The notes beneath the pieces were generated by a model, which was not told where the DNA came from, made no database searches, and saw only the letters and a list, made by a program, of their open reading frames with translations. DNA of 64,000 nt from assembly GCF_001598215.1 (NCBI RefSeq), contig NZ_BCXJ01000002.1:124001-188000 (forward strand). The letters are read 5' to 3'. Below, piece by piece: positions 1 to 39,077 of the stretch; position 1 is the first letter of the stretch, and every line of letters starts with the position of its first letter. Origin of the DNA: Shouchella clausii. GTDB lineage: Bacteria > Bacillota > Bacilli > Bacillales > Bacillaceae_D. The translations under genes and the position numbers were made by a program.

Positions 1-492
1 CAAAAATGCAAGCAACACTGCGTATCGTTCTTCTTCTCGGTCGAGGGGCTCTTGGCTCCCGATTTTATCTAGCACCGCCCGAAACAAACGATAGGCGTGG
101 ACGTGTAAGTCGTTTCGTTCTAAATGGTATTCATAACTTGGAAAGAGGCCAAGAATACGTGTTTTACGAACCGTTAGCTGGTCCTTTTCCTCAAGCAATG
201 TTGCCACGTCTTGATGAGTGCGGGAAGAAGAGAGGCCTTGCACCCAATAATTGAGAGCGCGAGGCTTTTTCTCTTTCATGCGTGCAAGTGTTTGCCTAAG
301 CAATGGATCATTCGTATCTTCATTAACAATGACTGCTTTCTTACGTTGCAATTCAATATTGCCATTGATCATCAATTCAGCCAGTAGCGCGCCATTAAGC
401 GCATAAGGTAGAGCCGTTGTTGCTCGGTAATAAGGCTTCGCTGTTTGCGGATTAATCGCTAATAGGAACAATTGCTCAGCAATAAAAGGCAA
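1..492 (-). CDS. GPP34 (GOLPH3-like) family protein, partial
   Basis: The reading frame is open from a TTG at 492 down to the left edge (164 codons), so the C-terminus lies outside the window. The N-terminus LPFIAEQLFLLAINPQTAKP, followed by a YALNGALLAELMINGNIEL stretch, a DPLL motif and LGLFPSYEY, fits the GPP34 domain (Pfam PF05719). That domain binds phosphoinositides in eukaryotic GOLPH3; its role in bacteria is not settled. TTG is chosen because GGAGT sits 8 nt upstream; the ATG at 497 in another frame meets a stop after seven codons. The gene is monocistronic as far as can be seen. Confidence 0.75.
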   Translation of the reverse strand, partial: MPFIAEQLFLLAINPQTAKPYYRATTALPYALNGALLAELMINGNIELQRKKAVIVNEDTNDPLLRQTLARMKEKKPRALNYWVQGLSSSRTHQDVATLLEEKDQLTVRKTRILGLFPSYEYHLERNDLHVHAYRLFRAVLDKIGSQEPLDREEERYAVLLAFL

Positions 493-708
493 GGCCCATC
501 ACTCCTTTTTTTCATCTATATACTGTTTTACGAATTGATGTTAAAAAAGTTTCACCCCGCTCGCCAAGACTAGATAAAAGGCACACAGAAGACAACAAAA
601 CCAAAATCAACTGAGATTGTTATTGGTAGTATGCATGACTTGAAAAAAATTATAAGATTAGAGTAGTAAAGTTTAAAAAGCAATGATGCTTAGAAAAGGG
701 AGGAAGAG

Positions 709-999
709 ATGACTACTTCAAAAGAACGAAAAACGTGCAATAAAGGGCATAACTATTATAAAAGTACAGATCGTCCAAGCTGTCCAACATGCCAACGAGA
801 AAGTAAACCAAGTAGTGGGTTCCTTTCAAAGCTTTCATCTCCCGCTAGAAATGCATTGATACATGAGGGAATAACGACATTAGAACAGCTATCAAACTTT
901 AGTGAAAAGGAAATTTTAAAGATTCATGGAATAGGACCAGCTTCCTTGCCAACTCTTAGCGCTTCATTGGAAGAAAAACAACTCTCATTTAAACGTTAA
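709..999 (+). CDS. RNA polymerase alpha-CTD-like helix-hairpin-helix small protein
   Basis: This 96-residue protein has two parts. Residues 8-30 hold a CxKGHxY...CPxC pattern that looks like a small zinc ribbon. Residues 36-90 (LSSPARNALIHEGITTLEQL ... ILKIHGIGPASLPTL) match the helix-hairpin-helix fold of the RNA polymerase alpha C-terminal domain. Small proteins of this type are common in Bacillus and probably bind DNA or protein; the function is unknown. A GGGAGGAAGAG ribosome-binding site directly precedes the ATG. The gene stands alone, with a gap of more than 200 bp on its left. Confidence 0.75.
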   Translation: MTTSKERKTCNKGHNYYKSTDRPSCPTCQRESKPSSGFLSKLSSPARNALIHEGITTLEQLSNFSEKEILKIHGIGPASLPTLSASLEEKQLSFKR

Positions 1000-1127
1000 A
1001 TTGTATTTAAATTTCTGAACCTGCAAGTGTATGTTGAACTTCAAAAAAGTGGCGTGAGAAGGTTTCCATAGCTTCTTACATACTAATGATGTCGCCAAAA
1101 CAGATAGAGAAGGAGTTGTATCCCTCA

Positions 1128-1724
1128 ATGACAAATAACAGCATGAATCCCAAGGTTGATGAATTTTTAACGAACGCTAAAAAGTGGAAGGAAGAATATA
1201 AGAAGTTAAGAGATATTATTCTTGACTGTGACCTGACTGAAGAATTTAAGTGGATGCACCCTTGCTATACATTTGAAAATAAAAACATCGTATTAATACA
1301 TGGATTTAAAGACTACTGTGCGGTTCTCTTTCATAAAGGTGCCTTGTTAAAGGATGCCCATGGGATGCTCATCCAACAAACAGAGAACGTTCAGGCAGCC
1401 CGCCAAATTCGCTTTACAAATGTTCAGGAAATTATTGAAAGGGAGCCGATTTTAAAAGACTATATATATGAAGCAATTGAAGTAGAAAAAGCCGGATTAA
1501 AAGTAAAAAACGATAAAGACAATACCAACTTGATCATTCCAGAAGAGCTTCAAAGTAAATTCGCAGAAATCCCCGCTTTGAAAACAGCTTTCGACGCATT
1601 GACGCCAGGAAGGCAACGAGCATACATTCTTTATTTTTCAGGAGCCAAACAACCAAAAACACGAGAAGCAAGGGTTGAAAAGTACGTCCAGAAAATTCTA
1701 GATGGATTAGGATTGAAGGATTAG
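1128..1724 (+). CDS. YdeI/YdhG-like DUF1801 family protein
   Basis: A protein of 198 residues. The N-terminal two thirds (KVDEFLTNAKKWKEEYKKLR ... EEFKWMHPCYTFENKNIVLI ... YCAVLFHKGALLKD) match the YdhG/YdeI domain (DUF1801, frataxin-like fold). The C-terminal part (LKTAFDALTPGRQRAYILYF, then KTREARVEKYV) is the OmdA/YdeI tail that often accompanies it. The biochemical role is not established. I start at ATG 1128, which has AGGAG 12 nt upstream. An in-frame ATG at 1086 has no ribosome-binding site, and 1143 is a further possibility. Confidence 0.8.
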   Translation: MTNNSMNPKVDEFLTNAKKWKEEYKKLRDIILDCDLTEEFKWMHPCYTFENKNIVLIHGFKDYCAVLFHKGALLKDAHGMLIQQTENVQAARQIRFTNVQEIIEREPILKDYIYEAIEVEKAGLKVKNDKDNTNLIIPEELQSKFAEIPALKTAFDALTPGRQRAYILYFSGAKQPKTREARVEKYVQKILDGLGLKD

Positions 1725-2459
<735 letters not shown>

Positions 2460-2975
2460 TTAGTCAGCTTCTTTCAGTTGCCATGCGATCACTTTCCCAA
2501 CTGCTTCAGCCGCGGCAAATGGGGTTACTTCATTCGTCGGCTGTTCCTGCTCAGCTTTCAAACATCCGATCATATCCGGATCCAACAGAGAAGGATCGAG
2601 CCAGGATATGGCCCAACAAGCCCAGAATTTCGTTAAACCCACTGACTTCTTGGCTGTTTCTTCCAATAATGGTAGACTGTCAGATCCGATGCGCATCAAC
2701 GAGAGAGCTGCAGCCATCCTTGTCTCCTCAGAGCTTGTTTGCATCAGCTCGATCAGTTTCGGCACCGCCTCTCCTGCGTCTGGACCTAACTCTCCGAGAA
2801 CGGCGCATGCAATGTCACGCAACATCGGATCCTCACCATGAAGCCCATCTATCAATAGTGGCAAAGCGGCTTTACCAGACCGCCTCACTTCTTTCAGCCC
2901 CGCAGCTACCTGGTTAATTTCACTGGAATTGGCGATCTTTCTAAGCGATAGAGATACTTCCTCGTTCTTGTCCAT
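2460..2975 (-). CDS. HEAT-repeat domain protein
   Basis: A 171-residue protein built of helical repeats. Residues about 20-110 carry two to three HEAT/PBS-lyase-like units (KAALPLLIDGL ... LRDIACAVLGELGPDAGEAV, then TRMAAALSLMRIGSDSLPLL). The C-terminal part is Trp/Ala rich (KFWACWAISWLDPSLL). Such repeats serve as protein-protein scaffolds; the partner is unknown. The start has AAGGATGG about 7 nt upstream. No operon partner is visible. Confidence 0.75.
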   Translation of the reverse strand: MDKNEEVSLSLRKIANSSEINQVAAGLKEVRRSGKAALPLLIDGLHGEDPMLRDIACAVLGELGPDAGEAVPKLIELMQTSSEETRMAAALSLMRIGSDSLPLLEETAKKSVGLTKFWACWAISWLDPSLLDPDMIGCLKAEQEQPTNEVTPFAAAEAVGKVIAWQLKEAD

Positions 2976-3101
2976 AGAGACACCATCCTTTTGTATTACG
3001 TATTCCGTCTCAAAATTGCAATAACATCATCATCGAGAATACAGCAGTGAGCGATGGGTTATACCCTTGACCTTCCGGAGTTTAGTGAAATAGGTGATTT
3101 A

Positions 3102-3379
3102 TTACTTTATATTGCTCTCAGAATAGTAACTTACTAATTTATCTTGTTGTTTTGCATACTCAATTTCTTTTTTTGTGCTTTCCCCAATATACTCATTAAT
3201 ATCAATAACAAAAAATTTCGTCAGACATATTATTTTTTCATAATGGATTTTCCCATTCCTTCACTTTGCTCGAAAAACCCGAGACTTATCACAATATTTC
3301 CTTGCAATGTATGATAAGCATTTGCTTTCTCGAATTGTTCCTTAAATTTTGTAGAGCCGCATAACGTAATTACTTTCAT
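3102..3379 (-). pseudogene. Nucleoside 2-deoxyribosyltransferase-like gene, internally deleted and frameshifted
   Basis: The N-terminal part reads MKVITLCGSTKFKEQFEKAN ... IVISLGFF and stops at TAA 3230. In another frame directly downstream comes TKFFVIDINEYIGESTKKEI followed by EYAKQQDKLVSYY, the normal C-terminal half of this nucleoside-processing Rossmann family, ending at TAA 3102. From family knowledge roughly 20-30 codons between EQSEG and the FVIDI strand are missing, and the frame is shifted. Neither half alone would make the fold, so this is a decayed gene. Confidence 0.7.
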
Positions 3380-3592
3380 CAAGAGAACCTGCTTTCTACT
3401 ATTCATATCATATGAATTGCAAAGGCTTCCAACGTACATCCCTCTACTGGCTTTCTGATATGCGTATTTCTACTCGCTCTAATAATCTAGATGCCGGTGT
3501 CAACTCCAGATCAATCATTTTCTTCGTTTGTATAGAGTCATTTCCCTATCTTCTTTTACTTCTACATTGCCTCTCCCACTTCCCTCTTCTCT

Positions 3593-4048
3593 TTAAAATT
3601 CACTAATCTGTGCATTTGGACACCGTTTTCTCAACTCAGCAATAAATTCCATTTTACCCTTTGGTAATATTTTTATCGTTCTAGAAGCATTGGATGTTTT
3701 GTAACGCAATTCAATTCCCTTATCAGACGAGGAAATTTGATAACCGGTGAATCGAGCGGTCGTTGGGACGACTTTTATTATGTTTAGGTACAATATTTTA
3801 CGTTTAAATGGACCTGCTTTGATTAGTAGATGTTCCTTCGTCAAAACAAATTTAATGGAGGTTATGTACAACAAGAGAAGGCTAACTGTAACAATAAACA
3901 TCGCAACCGAAATGAAAAAAATAAGGGATGAAGACACCCCTCCGAGAATAAAAGTGAGAGGAAGAACAGCAATTGCGACCATTGCGCCTACCAATAAAAA
4001 TATAAATATACTCATAGGAAGAATCGCTATTTTCGCATGAAAAACCAT
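3593..4048 (-). CDS. Membrane protein with bacterial PH domain
   Basis: 151 residues. Two hydrophobic helices at about 6-35 and 38-62 are followed by a beta-rich domain starting KFVLTKEHLLIKAGPFKRKI, with a later NIIKVVPT, and ending near KGKMEFIAELRKRCP. This matches the bacterial PH-like (YyaB/bPH) family of membrane-tethered proteins of unknown role. Its ATG overlaps the stop of the hydrolase gene (TAATG at 4050-4046), so the two are probably translationally coupled. Confidence 0.75.
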   Translation of the reverse strand: MVFHAKIAILPMSIFIFLLVGAMVAIAVLPLTFILGGVSSSLIFFISVAMFIVTVSLLLLYITSIKFVLTKEHLLIKAGPFKRKILYLNIIKVVPTTARFTGYQISSSDKGIELRYKTSNASRTIKILPKGKMEFIAELRKRCPNAQISEF

Positions 4049-5001
4049 TATTTACTCACATCCTTGTTAAAGTATATGTATGCGCCACTGCCCATTTCTA
4101 CAAAGCGCCATTCATCCTGTAACAAAAACGCAGACACAATTCGATAATAGACATCTGGACATTCGGCATGGGGCGTATGCCCACAATTGTTAATCATCAC
4201 TTTATGACCGTTTGCCATTTGATTATAGGCTTCCACATGTTTATCGCATGTGACTGGGTCCGCGTCCCCCATGACAAGCAAAGAAGGAATCGAAAGACTG
4301 GGAAGCAAGGAGACGATCGATTGGAAGATCCTTCCCTCTTCTCGTAAACGCTCAAGATGAATGTCCGTTCGGTCATCAAACGCCTCCCATTCTTCATCCG
4401 TATATGCCGAATAATCTATTGAAGTATCGGCATTTACCCGATAAATATCCTCTTTATGTTCTCCTAGCTCCTCTCCTAGGCGTAAATACGAATCGAATAG
4501 GTGCTCACTTGATAAGTTGCTGGCTGCTAGATTTAGACATTCCTCGGATTTCTTTTCGACTCCTAGCTTTAAAAAGACAGAAGCTGCTCTGCGCAACAAA
4601 CTTTTTGCCGTCCATGCAAAGTCAAAGGTTGGACATTCAAAAACAACGTTTGTGATAGAGTTTGGATATACTGAGGCATAAAGCAAAGCAAGATACCCAC
4701 CAAACGAATGGCCAATGACCGCCCATCGGTAAATGCCCAGTTGTTTCCTCAATTCCTCACAGTCTTCCACTAAATCTTGAAGCTCGAATGGTTCAGTTTC
4801 TGATAAACCTTCCGAGCGACAAACCCCTCTTTGGTCAATCGCTACCAATTGAAATTGATCCGAAAAACGGTTGGACTGATGATAGACAAATTCGTAACAG
4901 CTTTCTCCAGGCCCGCCATGAAGAAAAAGCACAGCCGGTAGTGACCGATCTCCGAAAATCTCTACATGGATTTTTTTACCTCGTACTATATATGTATTCA
5001 T
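4048..5001 (-). CDS. Alpha/beta hydrolase, proline iminopeptidase-like
   Basis: 317 residues of alpha/beta hydrolase fold. The oxyanion motif HGGPGESCYEF is near residue 28. The nucleophile elbow GHSFGGYLALLYA (Ser) is near residue 95. The acid region is VMGDADPVT, and the catalytic His lies in NCGHTPHAECPD near the C-terminus. HGGPG is typical of proline iminopeptidase-like members, but the natural substrate cannot be read from sequence. ATG 5001 is chosen because GAAGGAG lies 8 nt upstream. It forms a two-gene unit with the PH-domain gene, whose start overlaps its stop. Confidence 0.8.
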   Translation of the reverse strand: MNTYIVRGKKIHVEIFGDRSLPAVLFLHGGPGESCYEFVYHQSNRFSDQFQLVAIDQRGVCRSEGLSETEPFELQDLVEDCEELRKQLGIYRWAVIGHSFGGYLALLYASVYPNSITNVVFECPTFDFAWTAKSLLRRAASVFLKLGVEKKSEECLNLAASNLSSEHLFDSYLRLGEELGEHKEDIYRVNADTSIDYSAYTDEEWEAFDDRTDIHLERLREEGRIFQSIVSLLPSLSIPSLLVMGDADPVTCDKHVEAYNQMANGHKVMINNCGHTPHAECPDVYYRIVSAFLLQDEWRFVEMGSGAYIYFNKDVSK

Positions 5002-5084
5002 AATTGTGGCTCCTTCGTTGATGCAATCATTCTTTTTATTTGCGGTGAAAAGGGCTTGTTGAGGTAAGGATGAGGTGAACTGAC

Positions 5085-5309
5085 ATGGATACATTTATCT
5101 ATAAGAAAAGAGGACGCTTTTATCCGCGAGCATGGCTGAGTTCACGTATGTTAAGCACAGCCATGAGGAATATGCAATGGGCGTCACGCTACGCGGCGTA
5201 CAGTAGTACAACCTGGACGGTAGCTTCCAATCTTCCTATCGGGGCGGCGTCATGCTGTTTCATCCGGAGCAGATACATGACGGAAAGTCACAGGACCGAA
5301 GTGGTCTGG
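5085..5309 (+). pseudogene. Fragment of AraC-family regulator (N-terminal sensor domain)
   Basis: From 5126 the frame reads ASMAEFTYVKHSHEEYAMGV, then TLRGVQ, an in-frame TAG at 5204-5206, and YNLDGSFQSSYRGGVMLFHP followed by EQIHDG. This is the AraC-type cupin sensor (His-rich HSHEEYAMGV; FHPEQIHDG). The 5' end is out of frame with the ATG at 5085, and the HTH half is absent: the sequence runs into a terminator hairpin. So only about 60 codons of a former regulator remain. Confidence 0.75.
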
Positions 5310-5311
5310 AA

Positions 5312-5340
5312 CCACAAAAACGCCCTGCGATGAGGGCGTT
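5312..5340 (-). terminator. Terminator of the AraC gene 5363-6223
   Basis: The inverted repeat AACGCCCT/AGGGCGTT (5319-5340) is followed on the minus strand by a T-rich run. It lies just downstream of the AraC regulator stop. Confidence 0.75.
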
Positions 5341-5362
5341 GAAGGGTATGGCTTTCTAAGAA

Positions 5363-6223
5363 TCAACCTTTTCGAAAAGAAGTAGGCGTGACACCGATAT
5401 TTTTCTTAAAATATCGCCCGAAGTATGAAGAGTCTCGGAAACCAAGATAGCTCGCGATCTCCGCTATATGAGCGTTTGAGTACCGTAGTAGACGCTTTGC
5501 CTCAAGGAGCTGTCGATCGCGGAGTACTTTTCCCGCGGATTTCCCCAATGTTTTTTTGACCGATTCATTGAGATGATTGGAGCTGACATGAAGCATGGAA
5601 GCATATTCGGAGACGCTATGTACGGTACGATAATGGGACTCCACTGCTGCGACAAACTCTTTCGTTAGCCTAAATCCCGCCTCTTCTCGGTGGCGTTGTT
5701 GCCACGAATCCTGAATGCGACTCATCTCAACTAGTATAAGACGGATATAGCTATTGACGGCTTCCAATTGCTCCTTGCGCTCTATCTCCTGCTCCCGTTC
5801 AAGCAGACCAAACAGCGTATTGAATATCGTTGCCTGGTCAGCAGCAATGCGATGAAAAGGGGTTCCTTCCATAAGATCAAGCAAGGAAGTGTGTGGCCAT
5901 TCCAACTGCTGTCCAACCAACAGCTCTTTGGAGAAGACGAGCAACCAGCCGGAAAATGTTTCGCCAGGTTTACATTCAATCAATCCATGAACTCGCCCTG
6001 GTGGTATGAGGCAAAGCGTATTGGGATAAAAGCTGTAGCTTTGGAAGTCGATTTGAGCCGTACCGTGCCCTTCATTGATCCAAAACAGTTCAAAGCAGTC
6101 ATGCCGATGCATTTCGTAAGAGTCAAGCTTTTCAGGTATAAGTGGTAGCAATCTGAACCCTTTCACGTCTAGCGTAGCTGCTGGGATGACGGGAATCGTT
6201 TTTTGTCCGCTTTTATGTCTCAT
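5363..6223 (-). CDS. AraC family transcriptional regulator
   Basis: 286 residues from the chosen ATG. The N-terminal cupin sensor (MHRHDCFELFWINEGHG ... YPNTLCLIPPGRVHGLIE) is followed by a C-terminal double helix-turn-helix (VSEYASMLHVSSNHLNESVK ... IAEIASYLGFRDSSYFGRYF, ending GVTPTSFRKG). ATG 6223 is preferred: AGGGG lies 5 nt and AAGGAGG 14 nt upstream, while the in-frame ATG at 6256 has no ribosome-binding site. It probably controls sugar or siderophore-type genes, but no target is adjacent; the neighbouring AraC fragment is on the other strand. Confidence 0.85.
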   Translation of the reverse strand: MRHKSGQKTIPVIPAATLDVKGFRLLPLIPEKLDSYEMHRHDCFELFWINEGHGTAQIDFQSYSFYPNTLCLIPPGRVHGLIECKPGETFSGWLLVFSKELLVGQQLEWPHTSLLDLMEGTPFHRIAADQATIFNTLFGLLEREQEIERKEQLEAVNSYIRLILVEMSRIQDSWQQRHREEAGFRLTKEFVAAVESHYRTVHSVSEYASMLHVSSNHLNESVKKTLGKSAGKVLRDRQLLEAKRLLRYSNAHIAEIASYLGFRDSSYFGRYFKKNIGVTPTSFRKG

Positions 6224-6409
6224 ATGTTCCCCTAGCGCCTCCTTGAAACCGTCCATTTATCCCACGATTGTAGCATGTTTCTGATAATGTGGCTTGTTGC
6301 CAATCCCTACGGCGCAAATCGTTGTTTTTCTTAGCTTTTCGTCCTTAACAAAACAATGCTCATTAAGGCCGAAACTTTACCGAGAAAGTGAACTCTTCCT
6401 GCTACCATC

Positions 6410-6628
6410 CTATTGCCTTTTCCATAGCCTGCTGGGCAACCGTTTTGCAAAAATCAAATAAAGCAAAGTCGCCGTAGGAAAATTCAGCAGACCAATCATT
6501 CCCCATAACCAGTAATTATGGCCGTGTCGCCGGGCGTTGATAAATAGAATCGTACTTTGCGTAAATAAAATGGCGGCTAAGATTACCCATAGATAGAAAG
6601 GAACGTCAGAAGGAGGCATGTTCGTCAT
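6410..6628 (-). CDS. yxlD: YxlD-like small membrane protein of the SigY operon
   Basis: 72 residues with two transmembrane helices (FYLWVILAAILFTQSTILFI and YWLWGMIGLLNFPTATLLYL followed by IF). The layout resembles the PLDc_N-type small proteins YxlD/YxlE of Bacillus subtilis, which take part in negative control of SigY. ATG 6628 overlaps the yxlC stop as ATGA. It is the last gene of the operon read from 9589. The assignment to YxlD rather than YxlE rests on its position after yxlC. Confidence 0.7.
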   Translation of the reverse strand: MTNMPPSDVPFYLWVILAAILFTQSTILFINARRHGHNYWLWGMIGLLNFPTATLLYLIFAKRLPSRLWKRQ

Positions 6629-7005
6629 GAAGGTTTGTTCACCTCTTTTTTCGTCGTAAAATATACGATGAACGGCAGTATGACAACAGCGGTCCCTTGC
6701 AAGATCAGAAAGACCGTTGGCGAATGAAAGTAGGTTGTCGTCCAAAACGCTAAAATAACGAGGGCGAGCCCCCACAATCCTACTAGCTCCTTAAGCAGCT
6801 TTTTCCTGCTATTGGCTTTTGTTTCCTTTACTTGCTGCAGGAAAAAAGAAAGGTCTGGCTCATCCACTGAATCGAGCTGATCAAGACGTTCTAAACCCGA
6901 ACGCAGCTCCATAATCGTCTGTTTGTCGGTTAGCTGTGCTGATGGTCTTCCGTTTTCCCCCTTCGGTTCCAGATCCAATTTGTTCTGCTTCTTATCCTTC
7001 GTCAT
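6625..7005 (-). CDS. yxlC: YxlC-like anti-sigma factor component (DUF5345)
   Basis: 126 residues: a charged N-terminal cytoplasmic part (about 1-72, with a LDSVDEPDLSFFLQQVKETK segment) and two transmembrane helices (LLKELVGLWGLALVILAFWT; VFLILQGTAVVILPFIVYFT). In B. subtilis YxlC acts as the anti-SigY factor. The gene overlaps the end of sigY by 14 nt, and its stop overlaps the yxlD start, so production of sigma and anti-sigma is coupled. Confidence 0.8.
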   Translation of the reverse strand: MTKDKKQNKLDLEPKGENGRPSAQLTDKQTIMELRSGLERLDQLDSVDEPDLSFFLQQVKETKANSRKKLLKELVGLWGLALVILAFWTTTYFHSPTVFLILQGTAVVILPFIVYFTTKKEVNKPS

Positions 7006-7522
7006 TCACGTTCAACTCCTTCCTTAACAGACCTAATGCGTGATGAACCCTTGACTTCACAGTTCCTTCTGGTATGCCTAACATCTTGCCTATTTCTTCA
7101 TACCTATAGCTGTAATAGTGCTTCAAAATCAAGGGCAGACGATACCCTTCTGATAATTTCCCTAACCCATCTACAACATCCATCCATTCAAGCTGACGGT
7201 GGGCAAATTCCCACTTCAACTGGTGCAAAGGCGTTTCTGTATCTGCCATTAGCTCCTCTCTGTTCTGCTTGCGGCCCATATCAATATATAAGTTAGAGGC
7301 GATGGAAATCAACCATGTTGAAAACTTAGAACGGCCTTTATAAAGATGAATTTTTTCGATCGCCTTGGTCATGGTTTCCTGTGTTAAGTCATCGGCCAAT
7401 GATGGTTTTAATGTAATCTTTAACGCATATCTTTTCAAAAACGAATAATTCTCGTGCAGGAGAGTAGCTAGCGCCACTTGGTCTCCCTTTTGGGCTTTAC
7501 GAATAAGTGCGGTTTCGTCCAT
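6992..7522 (-). CDS. sigY: ECF sigma factor, SigY-like
   Basis: 176 residues. Sigma region 2 (ADDLTQETMTKAIEKIHLYK ... FSTWLISIASNLYIDMGRKQ) and region 4 (LPLILKHYYSYRYEEIGKML, then GIPEGTVKSRVHHALGLL) are both complete. The neighbours (ABC transporter, YxlC, small membrane proteins) are those of the B. subtilis sigY locus. ATG 7522 has AAGGAGA six nucleotides upstream; longer in-frame starts lack a site. A near-perfect SigY-type promoter at the operon head suggests autoregulation. Confidence 0.87.
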   Translation of the reverse strand: MDETALIRKAQKGDQVALATLLHENYSFLKRYALKITLKPSLADDLTQETMTKAIEKIHLYKGRSKFSTWLISIASNLYIDMGRKQNREELMADTETPLHQLKWEFAHRQLEWMDVVDGLGKLSEGYRLPLILKHYYSYRYEEIGKMLGIPEGTVKSRVHHALGLLRKELNVNDEG

Positions 7523-7580: not shown

Positions 7581-8360
7581 CTAGTCAACAAGCTCTTTGT
7601 GTGTAAAAATGGCGATTGCTCCAAGTTGCAAGCCGATGATCCCGAATAGAGTGGACAACAGAACAGGTGTATAATCAGCCAAACCCTCTCCTTCCAACAG
7701 AACCAATGTGGCGTGATTGGCCAGCTGTGCAGGACTCCATGAGAACCAGGCCGGAAATGACGATGACAGCAGGCTGATGAGAAGGATGGTAGCTAAGGCA
7801 CAGAAGGCTGCTGCGCCTGTTTGTTTAAGAATGGTGCTATAAAACAAAACAATGGTCATAACAAACGTTAACCACAATCCAAAATGAAGAAAACTGCTGA
7901 ACCAACGTTCAAGCGAAACGGCATCGAATAAAAGGTTTGTGTAATACATCGCTAAGCCGTAACCGAGACCAAGTGACACCCATGAAAAGCAAGTAATCGC
8001 CGCCCATTTGGCCGTGAGATAAGAAAAGTAAGGCACTGGCTTCAGTAAAATGATCGCCGCTACTCCGCTACGACGTTCAGCTGATACGATCCCCATCAAC
8101 GCCAACGTCAAGACAAGGACGCCGAGCAATCCGAAATCAGATAACGTTTGTGCGAGCACCTCAGTTCCTGTTGGCGTAGGAATGTCGATGACGGCCCCTT
8201 CTGGCAATCAGCCGAAGTCCTCTAAGATTTGTGGCATAAAGTAGGTGGAGAGCGGCGTCGAACTTCCTAGTAACAGAAACACAACAGGAACCCATATCCA
8301 CTTATAATTCCTCCATAGTTCTACTTGTTCTTTTTGAAACAAAACGAGCCATTGCTTCAT
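7581..8360 (-). pseudogene. yxlG: YxlG-like ABC transporter permease, interrupted by in-frame TGA
   Basis: From ATG 8360 the frame reads MKQWLVLFQKEQVELWRNYK ... MPQILEDFG, then TGA (8208-8210), then continues in the same frame as LPEGAVIDIPTPTGTEVL to a stop at 7581. The intact product would have 259 codons and several transmembrane helices (VLVLTLALMGIVSA, FAAYs replaced by FCALATILLISLLSSS, TLFGIIGLQLGAIAIF). One base change (for example GGA to TGA) explains the break. The start overlaps the stop of the ATPase gene as ATGA. A TTG directly after the TGA could allow reinitiation, but the first membrane helix would be lost. Confidence 0.8.
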
Positions 8361-9271
8361 TTTTGCACCACCTTTAAAAATAAATCTTCAAGAGACATTT
8401 TAGCTACTTCGAATTTCGTTAACCGAATCTGCTGCAAAGCAAAAGCGTGCAAGAGGAAGGGCACCGCCAACTCAATATCCTCTACCAATACTCTGTAACT
8501 ATCGTCTTCTGAGACAAAGTCAACAATACGTTTCTGTTCCCGCCAGTTCTTGAGCTGATGGGTCAAGTCATCCTTGGCTTCGATTATGATTGCCGCATCT
8601 TGCCATTCTTGCTGAAGCGAGTTAAGCGTCCCCCCATATTTTAGCTGGCCTTGATCAATAATGAGCACTTCGTCACTTACTTCCTCCGCGTCATGCAGGA
8701 CATGGGTTGAGAAAAGAACTGTTGCTTCCTCCTTTAGTGTTTGCATCAGCTGGAGCATTTCCCGGCGTCCGACTGGATCGAGAGCAGATACCGGTTCATC
8801 TAGCATGACCAGCTTAGGCTGGTGAATCAGAGCTTGGGCAATGCCGAGACGTTGCTTCATACCACCTGAATATTGGACAATACGCTGATGAGCTGCTTCG
8901 GCCAGCCCCACCTTGTCCAGTAATTCTTGCGTTCTACGCTTCGCTTCCCCTCTCGGCAAATGAGCGAGTTGCCCGACATAGAGAAGAAATTCAAAACCGG
9001 TCATCCAATCGCAAAAAACGGGAAACTGAGGCAAATAGCCGATATGGGCGCGAATGTCGCCCTTTCCGTGTGCTGATTGTTGGTGGAACTGTATGGTTCC
9101 TGATGTAGGTTTGACTAATCCTGATAACATCTTTAATGTAGTCGTTTTGCCAGCCCCATTCACACCTAATAAAGCGATGCAGGAATGCGGCTCCAGCTCG
9201 AAAGTAAGATTGTCCACTGCAGGGTACTCGGCATATGTCTTCGTTAATTGCCGTACAGATACGAAACTCAT
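8357..9271 (-). CDS. yxlF: YxlF-like ABC transporter ATP-binding protein
   Basis: 304 residues, complete. Walker A is GVNGAGKTTT (about residue 36), the ABC signature YSGGMKQRLGIAQAL (about 135) and Walker B LVMLDEPVSALD (about 158). A C-terminal extension of about 85 residues is typical of drug/antibiotic exporters of the CcmA class. GGGGGAGCCAGCG precedes the ATG. It pairs with the adjoining permease gene, which is broken, so transport may be lost. The start overlaps the original stop codon of yxlE (ATGA). Confidence 0.87.
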   Translation of the reverse strand: MSFVSVRQLTKTYAEYPAVDNLTFELEPHSCIALLGVNGAGKTTTLKMLSGLVKPTSGTIQFHQQSAHGKGDIRAHIGYLPQFPVFCDWMTGFEFLLYVGQLAHLPRGEAKRRTQELLDKVGLAEAAHQRIVQYSGGMKQRLGIAQALIHQPKLVMLDEPVSALDPVGRREMLQLMQTLKEEATVLFSTHVLHDAEEVSDEVLIIDQGQLKYGGTLNSLQQEWQDAAIIIEAKDDLTHQLKNWREQKRIVDFVSEDDSYRVLVEDIELAVPFLLHAFALQQIRLTKFEVAKMSLEDLFLKVVQK

Positions 9272-9589
9272 CGCTGGCTCCCCCTACCGAAGATCAAGTA
9301 CATTACCGGACCAATAAAGCTAACAAACAAAATCAGCGGAATCCAAAACGGATGCGCGCCTTTCGTCTTTGCTTGTTTCCCATAATCGATGAGCGCGACG
9401 ATGACCAAAATTAAATTCAACCGGACCAATAAAGCTAACAAACAAAATCAGCGGAATCCAAAACGGATGCGCGCCTTTCGTCTTTGCTTGTTTCCCATAA
9501 TCGATGAGCGCGACGATGACCAAAATTAAATTCAAAATGATTATGGGCGCAAGCAGCCCCCAAGGAACATCATTAAAATCCGTATTCAT
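9268..9589 (-). pseudogene. yxlE: YxlE-like small membrane protein, frameshifted by a 115-bp tandem duplication
   Basis: The native frame starts at ATG 9589 (GGGGAAGGATAGG upstream) with MNTDFNDVPWGLLAPIIILN ... HPFWIPLILFVSFIGPV and should continue MYLIFGRGSQR to the TGA at 9268, giving 68 residues. A perfect 115-bp duplication (9306-9420 = 9421-9535) is inserted. As 115 is not a multiple of three, the frame now runs into EFNFGHRRAHRLWETSKDER and stops at 9320 after 89 residues. The first and second membrane helices remain, but the C-terminal tail is replaced. Confidence 0.85.
9306..9535. repeat. Perfect 115-bp tandem direct duplication
   Basis: Bases 9306-9420 are repeated without a mismatch at 9421-9535. 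The copies abut exactly, inside yxlE. The absence of divergence implies a recent event or an unstable, reversible repeat. Confidence 0.97.
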
Positions 9590-9631
9590 CCTATCCTTCC
9601 CCTTTAACTGTAAATTCAAGTTCACATATAA

Positions 9632-9657
9632 GACGGACCAGATGACAAAATCGTTCA
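9632..9657 (-). promoter_or_regulatory. SigY-type ECF promoter
   Basis: On the minus strand, TGAACG (9657-9652) is separated by exactly 16 nt from CGTC (9635-9632). This is the reported form of the autoregulated SigY promoter in B. subtilis (from memory). It lies about 43 nt before the yxlE start, so it would drive the whole yxlE-yxlF-yxlG-sigY-yxlC-yxlD operon. Confidence 0.75.
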
Positions 9658-9695: not shown

Positions 9696-9870
9696 ATTCA
9701 TAGGGCCGTTTGCTTCTTTTTAACAGTCACTGAAGCTTTGCCTTGTAGATTTTATAGTAGTGGCTTTTCTGTGATTAATTTGGTACGTGAAATTATAAAT
9801 AGGACTAATATGAATCGCAAATTAAAGTAGTTTCAATCAAACTAATCTGCAGAAAACATCAGCATATAAA

Positions 9871-10421: not shown

Positions 10422-10746
10422 CTTTTGTGCTTTCTACAATAATGCCAATTCGTAGCTTGTTCTTATTTCTTGCTTTTTGTTTTTAAACATTCAACTGCCA
10501 CTCCGTACAAGTTTTATGGGTTTCACTAATGTTTGCTTACCACTCAGCCCACCAAGATGATGCAGAGGAGATAAGTATGTATCATCATCATGCTTCCAGC
10601 TGGCCAGTTTTGCCCCACTTAGCTTTTTTATTCCTTCTAACTTGTGGAGAATTTTTGAACCACATTAGATGATTTTCAGCAATCAGAATGAAGCGAACGT
10701 GGCGATTTACTGGTGGCGCTTATCCCCACTCATTTTTTCTAGTCTG
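10422..10746. other. 325-bp intergenic stretch
   Basis: No gene, RNA or strong hairpin was recognised between the hypothetical gene and the MFS gene. Confidence 0.5.
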
Positions 10747-38108: not shown

Positions 38109-39077
38109 ATGTTTAAGGCAAATATGAAACAATTAATCGTACGTACTTCAGTCGTAGTTGGACTAGCTGGCACAGCTTCTGTTGCGACAAGCCAATCTGC
38201 AGACGCTAGCGTTGACATGAACAAAGTAAACGCAGCAGAAAAGAACCAAAACCAAGCACAATCGGAAACAACTTCTGAATCAAATACAGTTTCTCAAGAA
38301 CAATCAACTTCTACCACTGTCCGTTTCGGTGACCGTAATGACACTGTTCGTGAAGTTCAAGAAAAATTAGGCATCTCTGCTGACGGCATTTTTGGACCGC
38401 AAACAGAAAAAGAAGTTCGCGAATTCCAAGCAAACAACGGTCTTTCCGTTGACGGCATTGTAGGACCGGCCACAAAAAAAGCTCTTGATAACGGTGGACA
38501 AGTTGCCTCTGCTTCTGAAGAAAGCACAACTTCAAATGAAACGGCTTCAAATGAAACAACTTCAAATGAAACAGCTTCAAATGAAACAGCTTCAAATGAA
38601 ACAGCTTCAAGCGAGTCAACAGCTTCAACATCTGAATCTGACTCTTCTTCTAACGAAGTAAACGAAGAAGTAAGCACATCCGTTGCTGGTACATCTGTTA
38701 CAAGTGCTCCTAGCAACAGTGGTGGTTTAGTAGGAGTTGCACAAAGCCAAATTGGTGCTCCTTACGTATGGGGTGGAACGACTCCAAGTGGATTTGATTG
38801 CAGTGGTTTCATCAACTATGTCTATAATTCTCAAGGAATTTCTATTCCAAGAACTGCACAAGCAATCTACGATGCATCAGCTAAAACGTCTAACCCTAGC
38901 CCTGGAGATGTTGTCTTCTTCACAGGCACATACAATTCTGGTTCGTACATAACGCACGCTGGCATTTATGTAGGAAACGGCCAATTTGTTCATGCAGGTT
39001 CTAGCGGTGTTCAAACTGCAAGCTTGAGCAACTCTTACTGGAGCAGCCACTACGTTGGTGCTGGAAGCCTCCGTTAA
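38109..39077 (+). CDS. Secreted peptidoglycan hydrolase, PG_binding_1 + NlpC/P60
   Basis: 322 residues. Signal peptide (VRTSVVVGLAGTASVATSQS, cleavage near ADA-S). PG_binding_1 domain (RFGDRNDTVREVQEKLGISA ... IVGPATKKALDNG, about 82-140). Then a Ser/Thr/Glu linker with SNETA repeats. The C-terminal NlpC/P60 domain has catalytic Cys in GFDCSGFINYVYNS and His in ITHAGIYVGNGQFVHAGS. It likely cleaves D-Glu-diaminopimelate stem peptide bonds. ATG 38109 has GGGGGA 9 nt upstream. WalR-type box upstream, terminator downstream. Confidence 0.92.
   Translation: MFKANMKQLIVRTSVVVGLAGTASVATSQSADASVDMNKVNAAEKNQNQAQSETTSESNTVSQEQSTSTTVRFGDRNDTVREVQEKLGISADGIFGPQTEKEVREFQANNGLSVDGIVGPATKKALDNGGQVASASEESTTSNETASNETTSNETASNETASNETASSESTASTSESDSSSNEVNEEVSTSVAGTSVTSAPSNSGGLVGVAQSQIGAPYVWGGTTPSGFDCSGFINYVYNSQGISIPRTAQAIYDASAKTSNPSPGDVVFFTGTYNSGSYITHAGIYVGNGQFVHAGSSGVQTASLSNSYWSSHYVGAGSLR
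38531..38605 (+). repeat. Five 15-bp tandem repeats in the linker
   Basis: Unit TTCAAATGAAACAGC repeated five times (the first two with one or two changes) encoding SNETA/SNETT, followed by a degenerate sixth unit. The number of units may vary between strains and change linker length. Confidence 0.92.

Follow-up and report, generated by a model that had tools for sequence, protein, structure and literature searches.

An apparently strain-private tandem duplication in yxlE and a nonsense codon in yxlG point to recent loss of function in a SigY-type operon of Shouchella

Results

Organization of the operon

The window, by which we mean the whole 64,000-nucleotide stretch of DNA analyzed here, lies on contig C2 of a 14-contig, 4.66-Mb assembly. 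Its minus strand carries six genes in the order yxlE-yxlF-yxlG-sigY-yxlC-yxlD. The first, yxlE (9268-9589), is frameshifted and has 57 native residues followed by 32 out-of-frame residues. Next comes yxlF (8357-9271), an open frame for a 304-residue ABC transporter ATPase (Pfam ABC_tran, E = 3.5e-34) with a Shine-Dalgarno-like GGGGGAG before its ATG. It is followed by yxlG (7581-8360), which we assign as an ABC-2-type permease by position and which is broken at codon 51 by a TGA at 8210-8208. With this stop read as X, YxlG matches ABC2_membrane_2 with an E value of 2e-5, but its score of 24.4 bits falls below the cut-off of 27.2. The ECF sigma factor gene sigY (6992-7522) is open and scores 252.8 bits against NF007216 (cut-off 194); its longest open reading frame (ORF) begins at a TTG at 7624, and its likely start is the ATG at 7522. 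Also open are the yxlC-type gene (6625-7005; Pfam DUF5345, E = 4.6e-26) and a gene for a yxlD-type small membrane protein (about 6410-6628), which has no Pfam match at 0.001 and was assigned from its position after yxlC and from tblastn similarity to small proteins at other loci.

About 43 nt upstream of yxlE, on the same strand, lies an ECF-type promoter-like site, TGAAC-N17-CGTC (9632-9657), which is present in all four aligned genomes and is one of two matches to TGAAC-N15-18-CGTC on both strands of the whole window. We take this site to resemble SigY-type promoters. The locus thus holds a SigY-class sigma factor with yxlC, yxlE and ABC ATPase genes alongside, and the assignment to a SigY-type operon made in the preliminary description is upheld by the NF007216 equivalog, by DUF5345, by the PLDc_N match of single-copy YxlE, by ABC_tran and by the promoter-like site. 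The set of components parallels sigY-yxlCDEFG of Bacillus subtilis, with SigY, YxlC (DUF5345), a YxlD-type protein, YxlE (PLDc_N), an ABC ATPase and permease, and an ECF-type promoter site ahead of the genes. The two operons differ in that yxlE-yxlF-yxlG here precede sigY-yxlC-yxlD, whereas the B. subtilis operon begins with sigY, and in that yxlE and yxlG are broken in the window strain. We infer the function of the module in Shouchella by analogy, from the B. subtilis gene names. In PMC2749860, sigY, yxlC and yxlE are listed as members of a single module.

We viewed the conservation of operon order through tblastn and six-frame matches only. A YxlE query was matched in 11 of 13 genus genomes and lay ahead of sigY in four of them (G000, G056, G010 and G008); in the other seven a weak match, possibly to YxlD, shares the strand of the sigY match and lies downstream of it.

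A 115-bp tandem duplication shifts the yxlE reading frame

Within yxlE, a 115-bp unit is doubled perfectly head to tail, forming an array at 9305-9535 that consists of 2 x 115 bp plus 1 bp. An exact lag-115 match extends over 116 bases from 9305 to 9420, so that the breakpoints of the duplication have 1 bp in common, and TRF agrees, with a 100% match and no indels across the array. No other exact self-match of at least 40 bases at lags of 20-3000 turned up in the contig's first 400 kb; since the array is the sole such match, the repeat is not a product of chance. Inspection of the nine short inverted-repeat pairs in 9200-9650 revealed no hairpin that pairs the two breakpoints.

The allele of a same-species genome, L002, gives the single-copy state. 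There the yxlE product has 68 residues, and the last bases of the gene overlap yxlF in an ATGA. In the two-copy allele, the frame is lost after residue 57 and ends after 89 residues at a TAG (9322-9320), and the native end and the ATGA overlap with yxlF are still in the DNA downstream. The shift removes the last part of the second membrane segment, including a YLIFGR motif common to the four aligned genomes, and puts 32 unrelated residues in its place; the PLDc_N score is 18.2 bits for the shifted product vs 35.7 for single-copy YxlE of L002, with the cut-off at 23.3. The shifted frame terminates 49 nt short of the yxlF start, and because yxlF carries its own Shine-Dalgarno-like GGGGGAG, strong polarity on yxlF would not be expected.

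The preliminary description had reported identical, abutting 115-bp copies that frameshift the 68-residue yxlE and leave its C-terminus and ATGA coupling intact, and had stated that one copy would give an open gene. The exact lag-115 match, TRF and comparison with the L002/G056 allele bear out each of these points. It had also proposed that two further copies would restore the frame, which proved wrong. The TAG of the shifted frame sits within the repeat unit, and arrays of two to seven copies consequently all terminate after codon 89, including those of four and seven copies that are in frame by length. Across copy numbers one to seven, yxlE is open only with one.

Related genomes carry a single copy

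We compared the locus with three genomes. L002, contig NZ_JAODPB010000002.1 of Shouchella tritolerans FJAT-45399, and G056 were treated as one genome of the same species as the window strain, and G010 (locus L084) and G008 (locus L085) are congeners. A literature search under the name 'Shouchella tritolerans' returned nothing. Over the locus, three of 40 genomes, the window strain's own among them, gave a DNA match, and protein search added G056. The duplication junction, allowing up to three mismatches, occurs in one of 13 genus genomes; nine of the 13 have no DNA match, so three are informative besides the window strain. All three have one copy and an open yxlE. Copy number across the four alignable genomes, two in one and one in three, thus amounts to a single between-strain event. 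Within the species, the description of the duplication and of the yxlG stop as private rests on one other genome. The 29 loci from other genomes that yxlF brought in (L002-L030) hold no exact tandem run of at least 30 bases at lags of 20-999.

Between 6350 and 9800, the window strain alone has the duplication and four substitutions: one at 7434 that replaces a SigY arginine with lysine, the yxlG stop at 8210, a synonymous change in yxlE at 9467, and one at 9696 upstream of yxlE. L002, for its part, carries five private differences. The private 9467 substitution is found in both copies of the repeat (9352 and 9467), indicating that, barring gene conversion, the duplication is younger than the substitution.

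Where the two genomes align closely, over roughly 300 kb, the window strain and G056 differ by 57 indels, four of them at least 10 bases long and the largest 16. The 115-bp duplication, which splits this alignment, is additional to the 57 and larger than any of them. A scan of the matching 400 kb of G056 for tandem runs of at least 95% of their period returned one case, of 36 bp.

A second lesion lies in yxlG

In L002, codon 51 of yxlG reads GGA, and in both L084 and L085 it reads GGG. It is thus glycine in all three comparators, and the stop is private to the window strain. To place this lesion against a background, we took 363 G056 ORFs of at least 100 codons from the 400 kb compared, a limit that passes over yxlE with its 68 codons. 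Nineteen had no match and 344 had a counterpart. Of 23 flagged ORFs, 12 were dropped for small length changes, a stop near the end or a position at the edge of the compared stretch, leaving 11 of the 344 whose reading in the window strain runs into a stop by codon 51. Most of the 11, in our judgment, are start-site artefacts that the longest-ORF rule produces. Inspection of the first 60 residues and of gap positions showed yxlG to be the sole one whose break clearly follows the true start; the remainder have a plausible later start or lie in divergent blocks. Real breaks are possible in at least three further ORFs (at 133689, 259885 and 288624 in joined-G056 coordinates), and the background of lesions is therefore above zero. 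To our eye, the two breaks that this operon carries are unlikely to be coincidental, though they could be.

We also considered a mutational bias behind nonsense changes and set it aside, as 770 SNPs over 300,130 aligned positions show no striking bias. The strand-collapsed, unpolarised classes, written from G056 to the window strain, are 63 C>A, 48 A>C, 274 C>T, 264 A>G, 42 C>G and 79 A>T.

Discussion

Our data make it likely that the yxlE-yxlF-yxlG part of this operon has undergone a recent, strain-private loss of function, and that sigY-yxlC-yxlD have stayed open. In the account that we propose, a 115-bp stretch inside yxlE was doubled head to tail after the split from G056, and the window strain separately gained the stop at codon 51 of yxlG. 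A homology of 1 bp may have sufficed for the joining or copying event behind the duplication, whether slippage or end joining, and Ku is encoded in the genome (184.9 bits, cut-off 25). The YxlE-YxlF-YxlG membrane module would no longer work. The frames of SigY, YxlC and YxlD, the latter two being its likely regulators, are open, so SigY may have lost one negative input. That the duplication persists would then reflect a module that the window strain can dispense with or does better without. Should the strain serve in laboratory or industrial work, users ought not to regard its SigY operon as wild type.

A nearly neutral duplication, with either the 89-residue product or a restarted one still at work, is an unlikely alternative. 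Truncated YxlE keeps 57 of its 68 residues and could be partly active. A frame that starts at a TTG in the second copy (9441-9268, 57 codons) keeps the native end and matches PLDc_N at 5.8e-9; by eye, no Shine-Dalgarno-like sequence precedes this TTG. Set against these points, the shifted product falls under the PLDc_N cut-off and yxlG is also broken.

Loss of function also has to be weighed against the reading put forward in the preliminary description, in which the repeat collapses and re-forms as a reversible switch that holds yxlE on with one copy and off with two or more, and so tunes SigY. Perfect repeats of this size can be removed by slippage or single-strand annealing, and the array is indeed a perfect tandem repeat that breaks a frame open with one copy. 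If the repeat flipped at useful rates, it would provide an off-but-recoverable state for a sigma-factor regulator. The gene of the pneumococcal type 3 locus is reportedly cap3A, with duplications there that are said to be perfect tandem ones. By their titles, two papers in the reference list of PMC4022640 (Waite et al, 2001; Waite et al, 2003) describe spontaneous duplications in pneumococcal capsule genes that cause or control phase variation. As far as these references tell, the type 3 locus, cap8E and tts resemble yxlE in having a duplication inside a reading frame that breaks the frame and is able to collapse, so that collapse is possible in principle here as well. They differ in that reversion frequencies of such lesions are discussed in PMC4022640, whereas the window strain has a second, unrelated lesion in the operon and the duplication was not seen to recur. 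Among the literature matches listed for anti-sigma factors and tandem duplication, no title concerned such a case.

Several further observations make the switch improbable. All three comparators are single-copy, and related strains are thus without variation as far as three genomes go. The yxlG stop lies in the same strain, and loss of a copy would not mend the module, although YxlE might act without YxlG, which would leave room for a switch. Arrays of two to seven copies all end at the same stop. The loci L002-L030, without an exact tandem run of at least 30 bases at lags of 20-999, give no hint of a standing repeat from which new duplications might start, and because the breakpoints share 1 bp, re-formation of the duplication is expected to be rare. 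The striking perfect repeat invites a switch story; the same-species genome, the stop inside the unit and the second lesion point instead to plain gene decay.

We consider it very unlikely that the chromosome holds one copy only and that the second is an artefact of assembly. The assembly is a draft in 14 contigs, and the three comparators have one copy each. When we compared one contig end and the starts of the unmasked contigs with one another, three pairs of starts proved to have exactly 87 bases in common, a length that suggests de Bruijn assembly at k = 87. Assemblers of this type tend to collapse short perfect repeats and not to create them. An unmerged k-mer overlap would have given a repeat of length k, 87 and not 115, and would recur, whereas no second lag-115 run of at least 40 bases is present in the 400 kb scanned of 4.66 Mb. 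We hold such an overlap to be unlikely on these grounds, and the junction is probably in the reads. How many copies an assembly loop contains is something that the assembler infers, and the two copies are best read as at least two.

A one-way contingency lock, with the YxlFG permease already inactive in the lineage, yxlE as a negative regulator of SigY off, and only collapse to one copy able to reopen it, strikes us as highly improbable.

The loss of yxlE-yxlF-yxlG function that we favor stands in a genome with other differences from G056. Downstream of the operon, a block at about 1734-6348 has no BLASTN match longer than 1.5 kb in the compared 400 kb of G056; it is a strain-variable segment that ends near yxlD. 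Just upstream of the operon, an ORF of 188 codons (with stop) in G056, which has no Pfam match up to an E value of 1, carries a GAG to TAG change at codon 19 (10434-10436) in the window strain. A later ATG leaves a 164-residue ORF (10421-9927), so this TAG may be harmless.

Short tandem duplications vary between G056 and the window strain in both directions. G056 has two tandem repeats (L173:12404-12435 and L175:14996-15016), a perfect one of 2 x 16 bp and a partial one of 12 bp, and the window strain is without these 16 and 12 bp. TRF and alignment also identified a 15-bp tandem repeat of 5.7 copies at 38526-38610 that is one unit (15 bp) longer than in G056; the ORF holding it has 344 codons vs 339 in G056 (both with stop), an in-frame length polymorphism.
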